This document shows, piece after piece, positions 19,720-24,138 of a stretch of 24,820 bases of DNA (the first letter of the stretch is position 1; each line of letters opens with the position of its first letter). The DNA is from a virus: positions 1 to 24,820 of the IMG/VR virus record IMGVR_UViG_3300031656_000035; one strand, written 5' to 3'. The position numbers and the translations under genes are program-made. The notes beneath the pieces were generated by a model that saw only the letters and a program-made list of their open reading frames with translations, did not search any database and was not told the origin of the DNA.

Positions 19720-20517
19720 TTAGTTGTTAAATAAATCATCAAATGCGTCCTTTACATCAGCAGTCTTACCAGAAGGTACAGATGCTTTAGGTGCGTTTGT
19801 GTTGTTTGAAGTTGATTGTGGTTGTTGAGCCGGAGTAGATTCAGCTTCTGCTGTATCACCTACTTGCCCAGTTTCCATCCAAGTTTCCAATAAACCTTTC
19901 ATCTCATCATAATCATATTTTTTGAACATTGAAGGTAACTCAATTTGGTCTTTCAACATTGTTAAAATATTCTTATCTTCTGAGATAGATGTTTGATTTG
20001 GTTTTACTCTGATGTAAGTTTCTGGGTAGTTTTTCCCTAACTCTTTTGCTGTTTTGAATTCTACGGTGATATCTCTCCCACTCATTGGGTCAGTTAAATC
20101 TCCATAATCAGGATCTGCGAAGAACGCAAGTAGTTCCTGATAAACTGTTTTACCGAATCCCCAAAATTTAACTCCTTCAGATTCTTCACCACGAACCAAT
20201 ACTGGAACGTATGTTCTCATCTTAGGTGTTAATTGTTTTGATAAATTCCAATCGTTTCTATCACCGGTTGCCTTCAATTGTTGAGCGAACTCTACTAATG
20301 GGTCAGCCTCACCATGTGTTTGAGGTGAAAGGATATTCTTACCACCAAATCCGTAGTGGAAGAACAATTCAATAAACGGGTTGGATTCGTTGTGGATGTA
20401 AGGTACTATTCTTACTTGTTGTTTACCTGGTTTCGGTTTCCAAAGGTTATCTGTTTTTGTTACCTTCGTTTGTAGACTGTCTAGTCTGTTTCTAATTGCA
20501 TTTAAATCAATTGCCAT
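19720..20517 (-). CDS. 32: Single-stranded DNA-binding protein, gp32-like
   Basis: 265 residues. The OB-type core spans about 20-200, with LWKPKPGKQQVRIVPY (25-40) and FFHYGFGGKNILSPQTHG; the phrase KPGKQQVRIVPY is typical of gp32 relatives. A Gln/Ser/Asn/Pro-rich linker follows (about 210-248), then an acidic tail DVKDAFDDLFNN like the partner-binding C-terminus of T4 gp32. No cysteine is present, so the Cys-rich zinc site of T4 gp32 is absent. It coats ssDNA and organises replication and recombination proteins. It is preceded by three promoters and two hairpins, which suggests heavy and regulated expression. Confidence 0.9.
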   Translation of the reverse strand: MAIDLNAIRNRLDSLQTKVTKTDNLWKPKPGKQQVRIVPYIHNESNPFIELFFHYGFGGKNILSPQTHGEADPLVEFAQQLKATGDRNDWNLSKQLTPKMRTYVPVLVRGEESEGVKFWGFGKTVYQELLAFFADPDYGDLTDPMSGRDITVEFKTAKELGKNYPETYIRVKPNQTSISEDKNILTMLKDQIELPSMFKKYDYDEMKGLLETWMETGQVGDTAEAESTPAQQPQSTSNNTNAPKASVPSGKTADVKDAFDDLFNN

Positions 20518-20557
20518 AATTTACTCTGTTTTTGTTATTAATTAATTATTATTTATG

Positions 20558-20589
20558 TAAATATACGAAATATTTCTCAACATTCCTAA
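20558..20589 (-). promoter_or_regulatory. Promoter P8, proximal gp32 promoter
   Basis: TTAGGA (20584-20589), 18 bp ending TTCG, TATATTTA (20558-20565) on the minus strand. It is the closest of three to gp32, about 40 nt before its ATG, and unlike the other two it is not followed by the conserved hairpin. Confidence 0.75.
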
Positions 20590-20608
20590 TTATATTTCAG
20601 TTTTTATT

Positions 20609-20636
20609 TCAACACCTATTTAACCCCATGTGTTGA
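20609..20636 (-). other. Leader hairpin, copy 1
   Basis: On the minus strand TCAACAC pairs with GTGTTGA around a 14-nt loop (ATGGGGTTAAATAG). It starts nine bases past the P9 -7 box, so it would form at the very 5' end of the P9 transcript. Confidence 0.7.
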
Positions 20637-20644
20637 TATGGTTA

Positions 20645-20676
20645 CAAATATACGAAATATTATTTAATATTCCTAA
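20645..20676 (-). promoter_or_regulatory. Promoter P9, middle gp32 promoter
   Basis: TTAGGA (20671-20676), 18 bp ending TTCG, TATATTTG (20645-20652) on the minus strand. Transcripts would begin with hairpin copy 1. Confidence 0.75.
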
Positions 20677-20694
20677 TTATATTTAGTTTTTATT

Positions 20695-20722
20695 TCAACG
20701 CCTATTTAACCCCATGCGTTGA
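20695..20722 (-). other. Leader hairpin, copy 2, with a compensatory change
   Basis: TCAACGC pairs with GCGTTGA around the same 14-nt loop as copy 1. Against copy 1 one A-T pair has become G-C on both arms, so the pairing is kept while the sequence changed. Confidence 0.75.
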
Positions 20723-20730
20723 TATGGTTA

Positions 20731-20762
20731 CAAATATACGAAAAGAATTTGAATTAACCAAG
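20731..20762 (-). promoter_or_regulatory. Promoter P10, distal gp32 promoter
   Basis: CTTGGT (20757-20762), 18 bp ending TTCG, TATATTTG (20731-20738) on the minus strand. The -7 lies within a perfect 12-bp inverted repeat (20734-20745 with 20764-20775), whose other arm is in the 3' untranslated part of the upstream gene. Confidence 0.75.
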
Positions 20763-20775
20763 CCTTTTCGTATAT
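20734..20775. repeat. 12-bp inverted repeat over promoter P10
   Basis: ATATACGAAAAG (20734-20745) and CTTTTCGTATAT (20764-20775) are exact reverse complements, separated by 18 bp that hold the CTTGGT element. It follows the stop of the 210-residue protein by about 18 bp, so it could act as that gene's transcript end or as an operator. Confidence 0.7.
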
Positions 20776-20793
20776 ATTTTGTAATTTCTTTAT

Positions 20794-21426
20794 TTAGTAA
20801 GCGAATGCACCTTTGTGCTTTTTAGCCATTTTTAAAGCGGCTTTAATTGCAGTTGCTTCATCTTTGATATCACTAAATCCAAAGTCGAATTCGTTAGCCC
20901 AGATTTTCATACCTTTCTTAGCCTTTAATGTTACAACCCAGTAACCATCCATATCTTCTTCAACATCTAATTTGTTTTTTCCACCAGGAACACTAAATGA
21001 TGTGATAACTGATACACTACCGTTCTTTCTAGTAGTATGCTCAATTTCCTTATCTAGGATATTTTCTAAACCTTTCATTAGGAAATTGTTTTTACCGGGA
21101 GTCATTCCCATCCCTTCACTAAGGTTTTCAGTTAATGCGTTAGTTAACTCCAATTGTAAATCTTCTACTGCTACATCATAATCATCTTGGTCTGCATCAC
21201 CTTGTTCTAAATCGAAATCTAAAAGTTCAAGTGATTTATACTCTTCCATAATATCTTTATAATCTTTTTTAGATATTTTTGATTTCATCTTCTTAATGAA
21301 TTTTTCAAACTCTTTTGGTGTCTCAAGTCGTTTGATATCTCTATCGTGATTACCTGATTCATTTAAGCTTTTGAAGGATTTAATTTGCTCCATCATTAAC
21401 TTTCTATTTTCTTCTAAATTTGCCAT
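20794..21426 (-). CDS. Hypothetical phage protein, 210 residues
   Basis: I do not recognise this protein. The N-terminal half is strongly charged and helical (ENRKLMMEQIKSFKSL, then FEKFIKKMKSKISKKDYKDI), with an acidic stretch DFDLEQGDADQDDYD around 70-84. The C-terminal half has beta character (SVSVITSFSVPGGKNKLDV, GYWVVTLKAKKG) and ends in a basic helix (ATAIKAALKMAKKHKG). No signal peptide, membrane segment or cysteine is visible. It has its own promoter P11 and is followed by the gp32 promoter array, so it belongs to the replication-gene block. It may be a virion or DNA-associated accessory protein, but nothing settles this. Confidence 0.75.
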   Translation of the reverse strand: MANLEENRKLMMEQIKSFKSLNESGNHDRDIKRLETPKEFEKFIKKMKSKISKKDYKDIMEEYKSLELLDFDLEQGDADQDDYDVAVEDLQLELTNALTENLSEGMGMTPGKNNFLMKGLENILDKEIEHTTRKNGSVSVITSFSVPGGKNKLDVEEDMDGYWVVTLKAKKGMKIWANEFDFGFSDIKDEATAIKAALKMAKKHKGAFAY

Positions 21427-21927: not shown

Positions 21928-24138
21928 TTATAATATATTTTTCCTAATATAGTTCATATTTACAACTTTTGAACCTTCAATTACAAATGTAGTTGAAGTT
22001 TTACTATTAGTTCTAAATGTTACCATATTGTACATAGGTGATTGTGTTTTTTTATTCAAATGACTTAACATAAGAGTTGAAACCGCCATATACCCATCAG
22101 CTTGTGCTGCTGAGTTAACTATAAGTACATTTTCAGGCATATCACTAAATGCTGATATACGTTCTTCTACGAATTCCTTTCCTGTTTTTAAGAATGTCCA
22201 CGCAGTACCACCACCATTTGGCTTTAACCCATATACTTTTACTAATGGTAATGATGTTCGTCCGAAGTACATTTCCTTTTCTAATGTCAGCATATCTTTA
22301 AATAATTGGTCCACTTCCTTTTGTTGACCACTAGCACCCGATAATATCCTCTCAATAGAATCGTATGCTTTGGCGTTTGCCATTAACTTTCTAACTATAT
22401 CAGCTGATGGTTTGGATGCCTTTGGGATTACGGTGTTACCTACTGATTTTAACCCAGGCTTTTTCGTTTTCTTTAATACTAATAGAAATTTATTTGAGGT
22501 GTATGTGTATAGTTTACCAAATGCATCTGCGTCTTGTGCAATTGCTTCAACTTTATCTTCTATTGAGATTTTTCCCTTTTTTTCTAATATCAAGGATTCA
22601 TCTAAATACTTCTTATCTACTGATAGATTCATTATGAAATCATCGGTTTTCTTTTCAGATTTCTTTTTAGCTGATTGTAGTGCTTTTAAATTAGCTTTAA
22701 AGAATGAACCAAACATAGTACTCATTTGAGAAATCTTATCAATGATAGCCTTTCCTACACTTTTTACAAACTTCAATCCCTTATCAAATAAATCTTTTAA
22801 TCCTTCATCTAACTGAACACCTTCATGTATAAACATATTAGCTAAATCATCATTTGACATCATTCCGAACTTTTTAGCGAAATCACTTGTGATTTTTCCT
22901 AATTGAGCCTCACCTTCTGCCTGTTTTAATGATATTTGGAAAAACTTCTCACCTGATGTTAATGTACATAACCCATTACTATCGTATGAGATTTTTTCGG
23001 TTTTTAAATTCTCTATGAAACTAGCAACACTACCCTTTACAATGACACAATCAGCAGTATTCTTTTTACTACCTTCGGCTTTCGTATGTGGGTTTTTACT
23101 TTCGGCTGTATAATAATCTTCGATTCTTCCGTGAATAATACTCCAACCCTTTGTTCCTTTAATCTTACAGAATCTATCCATTCCGGCCGCAATTGCACAT
23201 ACTTGAATAATATTTACAATAGAGGCTTTACTCAACATAGATACTATATCATTACTGGCCCAATCCTGTCCCGTCAACGTTGATGTTACTGTATTTTTAA
23301 AGGTAGTAACTAATTTTGGAAGTGTTTCATCGGTTGCGTTATTGAAATCACTAAGGAATTTCTCTGCATTAATATAAACACCTAACAGAGCGGCAGTTTC
23401 CTTATCACCTGTATCTAATTTAAATGAGGTATTATCCTTATAATGTTTGAACATATTACCAACTGATGTACCTTTACCTTTTATATGGTAAACTTTTCCG
23501 TTAGCCCCTTTTAGATAAACCTCAATTCCAGTATCATCACCGACTTGGATTGCATCAGCAGTTGGTTTAACTTTCGTAGCCGGCATTGTCATCATCGGTG
23601 CACCATCTTCAATTCTTGCGGCAAATGATTTTTGACCACTTGAACTCCACATCACTTTGTGTCCTAATCCATAATCATCGGAATAAACACTAGCCTCACT
23701 TAATATAGCCCCTAATTCAATTAATATATTTTCTTTTAACTTATCTTTTTCATAATCAGTAAGTCCATTAAGTTTAATATCTTTAACTGCATCATCCTTA
23801 TCATCAATTTCTTCATCAGGCTCTTCACCTTCGATTTCTTCAACTTCTTCATCTTCTGTAATTTCTTCATCATCAGACCAACTAGCTATTTGTGCTGAAA
23901 CTGATGTTTGTGTTTTATTTACCTTAGTACCAGAATCAATATTACCTTTAGGTATAAAATTTGTAGGTGAGTTTGTAACACTCTCTACTATATAATCTAT
24001 AAAGTCATCATCCAATTCTAAATCTTCCCTTAAAATTGTTTTAAGTGCTTTAATGGATGCTTCACTTTTTGGGTCTTTTAAAGCAACTCCTGCTTCAACC
24101 CACCATAACGTCATAATCTCTTTAAGAAAATTCTTCAT
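21928..24138 (-). CDS. Large phage protein of unknown function
   Basis: 736 residues, no confident family. Regions seen: a short helical N-terminus (1-60), an extremely acidic segment (88-119, almost all D/E with few other residues), a beta-rich part with YLKGANGKVYHIKGKG (208-223), a central region with NTADCVIVKG (360-369) and FFQISLKQAEGEAQLGKI (399-416), then a lysine-rich amphipathic helical stretch (440-495) and a C-terminal domain ending NMNYIRKNIL. The D...SLK pattern resembles the D-x(n)-(E/Q)xK core of PD-(D/E)xK nucleases, but that is only suggestive. The start is two bases after the end of the polymerase gene. It could be a nuclease, a virion-associated protein or a DNA-packaging accessory. 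Confidence 0.7.
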   Translation of the reverse strand: MKNFLKEIMTLWWVEAGVALKDPKSEASIKALKTILREDLELDDDFIDYIVESVTNSPTNFIPKGNIDSGTKVNKTQTSVSAQIASWSDDEEITEDEEVEEIEGEEPDEEIDDKDDAVKDIKLNGLTDYEKDKLKENILIELGAILSEASVYSDDYGLGHKVMWSSSGQKSFAARIEDGAPMMTMPATKVKPTADAIQVGDDTGIEVYLKGANGKVYHIKGKGTSVGNMFKHYKDNTSFKLDTGDKETAALLGVYINAEKFLSDFNNATDETLPKLVTTFKNTVTSTLTGQDWASNDIVSMLSKASIVNIIQVCAIAAGMDRFCKIKGTKGWSIIHGRIEDYYTAESKNPHTKAEGSKKNTADCVIVKGSVASFIENLKTEKISYDSNGLCTLTSGEKFFQISLKQAEGEAQLGKITSDFAKKFGMMSNDDLANMFIHEGVQLDEGLKDLFDKGLKFVKSVGKAIIDKISQMSTMFGSFFKANLKALQSAKKKSEKKTDDFIMNLSVDKKYLDESLILEKKGKISIEDKVEAIAQDADAFGKLYTYTSNKFLLVLKKTKKPGLKSVGNTVIPKASKPSADIVRKLMANAKAYDSIERILSGASGQQKEVDQLFKDMLTLEKEMYFGRTSLPLVKVYGLKPNGGGTAWTFLKTGKEFVEERISAFSDMPENVLIVNSAAQADGYMAVSTLMLSHLNKKTQSPMYNMVTFRTNSKTSTTFVIEGSKVVNMNYIRKNIL

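Follow-up and report, generated by a model that had tools for sequence, protein, structure and literature searches.

Is expression of a phage gp32 gene, which encodes a single-strand DNA-binding protein, controlled through an RNA structure in its own leader when the phage lies outside the T4 group? In T4, gp32 is described as binding a pseudoknot in the leader and extending from it across an AU-rich, unstructured region, which prevents initiation (PMC535899, PMC3014915). The locus examined here comes from a virus record of 24,820 bases, referred to below as the window, in which a gp32 homologue of 265 aa (19720–20517, minus strand; Pfam PF08804 gp32, E = 6.7e-15; PHROG 1192 single strand DNA binding protein, 2e-17) is preceded on the same strand by an array of promoter-like sites and inverted repeats. 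Genes for a UvsX-like recombinase, an exonuclease and a DnaB-like helicase follow 3' of gp32 (Pfam/PHROGs), and this gene order is the same in Flavobacterium phage immuto. On the 5' side, two minus-strand reading frames of 736 and 210 aa (21928–24138 and 20794–21426) gave no Pfam or PHROGs match at E 0.001. The promoters of the window fit the TAnnTTTG -7 type described for Bacteroidota (PMC7366714, PMC6847099), and because they are of this type the phage host is probably a member of the Bacteroidota.

Read toward gp32 on the minus strand, the array consists of P1, element copy 1, P2, element copy 2 and P3, followed by the start codon at 20517. The P1 -7 element (TATATTTG, 20731–20738) predicts a transcription start near 20726, inside or next to the first strand of a putative helix, S1; the numbering, T-12 to G-5, is that given for F. 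johnsoniae (PMC6847099). Copy 1 comprises the S1 5' strand CCAU (20724–20727), the 5' strand of stem S2, UCAACGC (20716–20722), the S1 3' strand AUGG (20712–20715), the loop L2 GGUUAAAUAG (20702–20711; GnnUAAAU in relatives) and the S2 3' strand GCGUUGA (20695–20701). The spacer of P2 holds a hairpin, GGAAUAUU-AAAU-AAUAUUUC (20654–20673), and its -7 element (TATATTTG, 20645–20652) predicts a start near 20640, inside S1. Copy 2 repeats the order, with CCAU at 20638–20641, UCAACAC at 20630–20636, AUGG at 20626–20629, L2 GGUUAAAUAG at 20616–20625 and GUGUUGA at 20609–20615. Downstream of both elements lies P3, with a spacer hairpin that covaries across relatives (GGAAUGUU-GAGA-AAUAUUUC, 20567–20586) and the -7 element TATATTTA (20558–20565); transcripts from P3 would be without both pseudoknots and both hairpins. 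Since the predicted P1 and P2 starts fall inside the S1 5' strand, part of S1 might be absent from transcripts that begin there.

A preliminary description of this DNA had read the stretch as two promoter-hairpin units and a third promoter before gp32, which is borne out by the three -7 elements and by two direct repeats, one of 62 nt (95% identical, spacing 86) and one of 46 nt (85%, spacing 87). Its account of the hairpins also held: both copies have a 7-bp stem, which begins at the ninth base past the -7, and an identical 14-nt loop, ATGGGGTTAAATAG, and one stem pair differs on both arms, a G-C of copy 1 being replaced by A-T in copy 2. Of the three differences between the copies in the 62-nt stretch, two make up the change of this pair, suggesting that pairing was kept after duplication or that the pair was acquired from a relative by recombination; the TCAACGC stem of copy 1 is also present in L111 and L131. 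As a general arrangement the tandem array does not stand, however. Two copies occur at six loci on four contigs, whose identity to the window is 99.98% or higher wherever they align; a single copy is found in 116 locus entries (loci overlap). Judged by these comparisons, the array is a local duplication of one promoter-plus-element unit, confined to this one phage.

Two further inverted repeats were observed in the window. A perfect 12-bp repeat, ATATACGAAAAG/CTTTTCGTATAT, surrounds P1 (20734–20775) and might be a terminator overlapping a promoter; a second, less perfect one lies near position 1060.

Stem S2 and its occurrence with gp32

We took the best 80 of at least 599 viral loci from a gp32 protein search (L001–L080). 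Where gp32 was 79–100% identical (L001–L023), the element was present in 22/22 loci that include a leader; the contig of L015, with 12 nt of leader only, lies outside the 22. The conserved UAAAU ends 93–101 nt before the ATG in these leaders, and L001 and L002 have a further copy, at 186 nt. In L024–L080 the element was not found by pattern or by a stem covariance model, four of these loci (L036, L043, L044 and L056) being without most or all of the leader. Run over 73 sources, the covariance model matched only the elements themselves, the next best match having E = 0.55. Among 18 phage records with a gp32 match, two isolate leaders were examined, those of Mel-JY01 (gp32 43.7% identical) and immuto (36.7%), and the element was not found in either.

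The pattern with which viral contigs were then scanned fixed ACCA, TGGG and the purine preceding the stem and left the entire 3' arm and four 5'-arm positions free. This gave 115 stretches, and a second pattern omitting the upstream CCA gave at least 119; the same contig was fetched more than once, so that loci overlap in the counts. For 28 of the 81 distinct pattern strings the listed example lies before gp32 (distance taken from one example per string), and all 28 pair at 7/7 positions. None of the other 53 does so, the best reaching 6, with the best offset allowed for both groups. When every occurrence of TGGGnnTAAAT alone was considered, 127 paired 7/7, each 80–260 nt before gp32 (loci overlap), one paired 7/7 away from gp32 (L176, with G-U pairs and no CCA upstream), and 159 were not fully paired. 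ACCA stands upstream of all 127 fully paired gp32 elements; it was not required in this test, but most of the loci had been fetched with the ACCA-containing pattern. In genome_contigs, which covers 84,980 species by its description, 0/43 pattern matches pair 7/7 and none has gp32 in the fetched stretch.

The 81-string and TGGGnnTAAAT-only sets are the unselected tests of pairing; the 20 distinct core variants aligned below were chosen for 7/7 S2 pairing. Across these variants four of the seven S2 pairs show double changes, the G-C/A-T pair of the window among them, and one variant (L126) has a one-sided A-U to G-U change. No shuffle out of 500 reached the covariation score or the percentage paired of this alignment, in which 98.2% of cells pair compared with 26–45% in slid controls. 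The number of standard pair types was not above that in shuffles (479/500 reach it). Predicted stability of the leader is likewise unremarkable (z = -1.36; 19/200 shuffles fold at least as well), and the case for structure rests on covariation.

Selection for pairing, proposed from the two copies in the window, is upheld by these comparisons (28/28 versus 0/53 strings; four of seven pairs doubly changed; 127 cases versus one). Relatives keeping the sequence and breaking the pairing had been named beforehand as evidence against it, and the reverse was observed: the sequence changes and S2 stays paired. We regard S2 as established by comparison. That S2 is paired only before gp32, bar one case, also supports the earlier suggestion that a structured gp32 leader is a likely site of autoregulation, and because the element goes with gp32, gp32 would be its likeliest ligand.

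The interleaved helix S1 and a probable pseudoknot

The element had been described as a hairpin with a 14-nt loop. The stem stands, but the loop is probably not free: CCA and one base upstream of the stem can pair with one base and UGG at the start of the loop, giving a helix, S1, that interleaves with S2. Three S1 pairs (CCA/UGG) are invariant across the 20 variants, so conservation there could reflect sequence recognition. The fourth pair is U-A (CCAU/AUGG) in 12/20 variants, A-U (CCAA/UUGG) in 4/20 and a purine mismatch in 4/20, and the direct intermediates U-U and A-A occur in none of the 20.

We followed the fourth position on a gp32 tree of 59 distinct element-bearing rows, each with an ATG 108–125 nt further on and an open reading frame of more than 150 aa. 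It is paired in 44/59 rows and mismatched in 15/59; one-sided changes that break the pair do occur. Among the 44 paired rows, the U-A and A-U states interchange at least six times, and three gp32 proteins each occur in identical form with different pseudoknot states. Counts of independent pairs (6/6 and 4/4) were not taken as evidence by themselves, the 3' state following from the 5' state in the rows compared; the tree evidence for S1 is the number of changes (6). An alternative S1 made of UAACC and GGUUA was also rejected, fitting the window and not the L003-type variants (by eye).

From these comparisons S1 is a probable helix, and the element is probably an H-type pseudoknot. Its geometry would be 4 bp in S1, 1 nt in L1 (A or G), 7 bp in S2, no junction nucleotide, and 10–12 nt in L2 with GnnUAAAU. 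The L1 of the T2 gene 32 pseudoknot is also one nucleotide.

An unlikely alternative is that S1 does not form and that a simple hairpin, S2 with its GGGnnUAAAU loop, binds gp32 or another protein. S1 has only four pairs, three of them invariant and the fourth mismatched in 4/20 variants, and ViennaRNA assigns S1 alone -2.6 kcal/mol compared with -6.2 to -7.7 kcal/mol for S2 alone. Against this, a simple hairpin does not account for the repeated flips of the fourth pair between U-A and A-U, for the absence of U-U and A-A among the 20 variants, or for the upstream CCA, which is kept in 22/22 leaders retrieved by protein alone.

Candidate modes of control and comparison with known operators

With moderate confidence, we propose that the element forms an RNA pseudoknot within the gp32 mRNA leader and serves autogenous control of gp32. 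By analogy with T4, we infer binding, spreading and repression: gp32 in excess of its single-stranded DNA ligand would first bind the pseudoknot and then spread through the AU-rich leader, opening the weak hairpin of the promoter spacer, until it covers the start codon and initiation is blocked, as described for T4. The doubled unit of this phage would offer two nucleation sites on the longer transcripts, and transcripts from P3, which carry no pseudoknot, would escape control.

The position of the element relative to promoters bears on two other readings. The preliminary description had joined promoter and hairpin in one unit, and this stands for the 14/20 variants with a promoter-like site directly before the element; no -7 element adjoins in the other six (L088, L092, L128, L158, L188 and L194 types), five lying behind AAATTAAG and one behind AAAGTAAA in its place. 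An adjacent promoter is therefore not a requirement of the element. An insert separates an upstream promoter-like site from the pseudoknot in L010, L012 and L014; ARAGORN finds no tRNA gene in it.

We consider it distinctly unlikely that the structure is a 5' stabiliser, shielding the gp32 mRNA from decay with gp32 playing no part. The predicted P1 and P2 starts at the S1 5' strand would let the structure cap the transcript, but it would be internal in the six variants without an adjoining -7. A stabiliser should also precede other genes, whereas the element was found only with gp32 in the loci examined, bar one chance-like case, and a mere shield does not predict conservation of the loop. Less probable again is a DNA operator, in which the inverted repeat would be the site of a phage repressor or activator. 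The arms are 21 bp apart, two helical turns, in 17/20 variants and lie directly behind a promoter-like site in 14/20 (both by eye). However, the arm spacing is 23 bp in L189, L187 and L090, the conserved loop is asymmetric, and the L126 arm change is to G-U only; retention of the element without an adjoining -7, together with the 2-nt shift in arm spacing in three variants, argues against a promoter operator. We favour sense RNA rather than DNA as the active form, given the S2 G-U change in L126 and the sense-strand folding of the promoter-spacer hairpins described below.

How closely does the proposed autogenous pseudoknot resemble the gene 32 operator of T4, T2 and RB69, as described in the literature (PMC535899, PMC3014915, PMC5684407)? 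Both lie in the leader of the same gene and have an AU-rich region before the start codon, and the 7-bp H2 stacked on a short H1 in the known operators has a probable counterpart here in the putative H-type fold. Over 40 distinct leaders of the present kind, pairing is low only in the final 35 nt ahead of the start codon (0.28 to 0.03 per bin). The T2 pseudoknot is given as H1 5 bp, H2 7 bp and L2 7 nt (PMC5684407), compared with 4 bp in S1 and 10–12 nt in L2 here. The nearest pseudoknot of the window begins ~124 nt before the start codon, compared with ~67 nt in T4, and a promoter and a covarying hairpin stand between pseudoknot and gene where the T4 stretch is described as unstructured. UUAAA is not enriched in the pseudoknot clade (0.50 per 45 nt versus 0.81 in shuffles; 28 distinct ends), and UAAA is slightly enriched (2.57, as high as the top one of 100 shuffles, versus 2.15; 28 distinct ends). 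The unit is doubled in this phage, unlike the T4/T2/RB69 operator, the T4 leader being compared by description and not by sequence. That the element works like the T4 gene 32 operator is, by analogy, the best explanation of these features; we do not file it as a member of the T4-type operator, because its position and the intervening promoter and hairpin differ.

No Rfam family matched the window at gathering score, and at a lax threshold four leader matches appeared, all chance-like (E 1.1 to 9.1). STAXI RNAs, as described in PMC2864571, are likewise pseudoknots that occur in tandem, and the genes near them include those for single-strand DNA-binding proteins. In that description they have at least two repeats, usually three, and often UUCG loops, whereas here one copy is the rule and there is no UUCG loop; the STAXI Rfam model gave no match up to E 10 in 20500–20800 and none at gathering score in the window or in 17 loci. 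The gene 43 operator of T4 and RB69 (PMC3014915) is similar as a case of a replication protein controlling its own translation through a leader hairpin. It involves another gene and protein, and the -UAAC- of its loop is absent from the loop here, which sets it apart by description.

A full-text literature search, covering titles and the starts of abstracts with few subscription papers, returned no gp32-leader pseudoknot outside T4-type coliphages. Given that the T4, T2 and RB69 operators are already known, what is new here is probably a variant, tentatively assigned, of gene 32 leader control: a probable pseudoknot near T4-type geometry in phages with Bacteroidota-like promoters, alongside a distinct gp32-leader element in another clade (below). 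How common T4-style gp32 control is, an old question, thereby becomes testable, as does whether this leader arose independently or shares an ancestor with that of T4. The natural sequence variants are suited to compensatory-mutation tests.

Promoter-spacer hairpins and other gp32 leaders

The spacer of P3, between the -33 TTGG/TAGG and the -7, varies among relatives and yet stays complementary, with arms such as AAGTTT/AAACTT, ATAATT/AATTAT, ATTATT/AATAAT and AATGTT/AATATT, among others. At least 6 bp form in 15/17 distinct P3 strings and in 3/54 other promoters of the same loci (Fisher p = 1.1e-10), the P3 string pattern itself imposing two of the eight hairpin pairs by fixing GG and T[CT]. 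The two strings below 6 bp fail by a C-A and by a G-A, respectively. Promoters just upstream of the element reach 6 bp in 7/21 cases. In the P3 hairpin alignment 98.5% of cells pair and 27 are doubly changed, with 0/500 shuffles reaching either value; for two of five measures the excess over shuffles is not clear, 405 and 41 of 500 shuffles doing as well. Among the 15 hairpins, 13 have a GNRA-type loop and five contain one sense-strand G-U pair (by eye).

Spacers of gp32 promoters from all clades (n = 77 distinct) fold more stably in the sense strand in 50 cases, in the antisense strand in 20 and equally in 7, which argues against antisense folding, although the GG and UC of the promoter itself account for part of the sense advantage. 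Several of the 20 antisense-favoured spacers belong to the ACATTTGG clade described below. A z of -2 or lower was found for 29/46 gp32 spacers and 10/69 spacers of other genes; the immuto (L260) gp32 spacer has a 7-bp stem with a modest z of -1.3. As a general promoter trait the hairpin was rejected: p was ≤0.05 in 15/169 promoter-like strings (mean p 0.57), and 109 fixed-register strings gave 358/654 pairs, hardly above the 298–340 of slid controls. The spacer hairpin is enriched at gp32 promoters.

Transcription attenuation, in which the pseudoknot and the promoter-spacer hairpin would stop upstream transcripts and P3 restart them, finds a basis in this covarying, gp32-enriched P3 hairpin and in the overlap of P1 with the 12-bp inverted repeat, but we hold it to be highly improbable, as the P3 hairpin is followed by GUAUAUUU rather than by a U tract and no mutually exclusive pairing was noticed in an informal look. 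More speculatively, and in our estimate rather doubtfully, the gp32-binding pseudoknot and a hairpin sharing its DNA with the next promoter could form a modular pair, so that promoter choice would set the repressibility of the mRNA; other gp32 lineages would have swapped the pseudoknot for unrelated leader RNAs, many keeping the gp32-promoter hairpin.

Other gp32 leaders carry conserved features of their own. In another clade (L063, L066, L075, L077, L078 and further loci) we observed an element with the loop AGGAWAG on a 5-bp stem, followed by UAAAUAAAACC. Of its 39 distinct strings, 36 pair 5/5 and lie less than 200 nt before the gp32 start (54–121 nt in the examples listed), and the other three are neither fully paired nor with gp32 there; matches within 30 nt upstream or 45 nt downstream of a locus end were dropped from this count. 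Its stems include AGUGU/ACACU, CGAGU/ACUCG, CGUGU/ACACG and GGUGU/ACACC. UUAAA is enriched over all gp32 leaders (126 versus 64.9 in shuffles, 104 distinct ends; 1.21 per leader versus 0.55 in 163 AT-rich leaders of other genes). We did not use this enrichment as evidence, because it is carried mainly by the AGGAWAG clade, with 2.03 per leader compared with 0.50 in the pseudoknot clade.

A third kind of gp32 leader (L047, L049–L051, L053, L055, L057, L058, L060, L061, L064 and L074) has a conserved TTCTAGAC (CCTAGGC in L057) with a promoter hairpin and a longer helix. RNAalifold on 12 sequences predicts 28 pairs, 9 of them doubly changed, and many pairs break in some sequences. A sister clade without the pseudoknot (L024, L026–L042) has an inverted repeat, ACATTTGG-9 nt-CCAAATGT, across the -33 of its gp32 promoter; L034, L035, L040 and L042 show G-U or U-G changes in this repeat. 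Lastly, the gp32 leader of Microcystis phage Mel-JY01 (L261, 2409–2464) has a Bacteroidota-type -7, CGTATATTTGTAAC, though its stated host is a cyanobacterium, and a 9-bp inverted repeat, TAATGAATT/AATTCATTA, follows this -7 (by eye).
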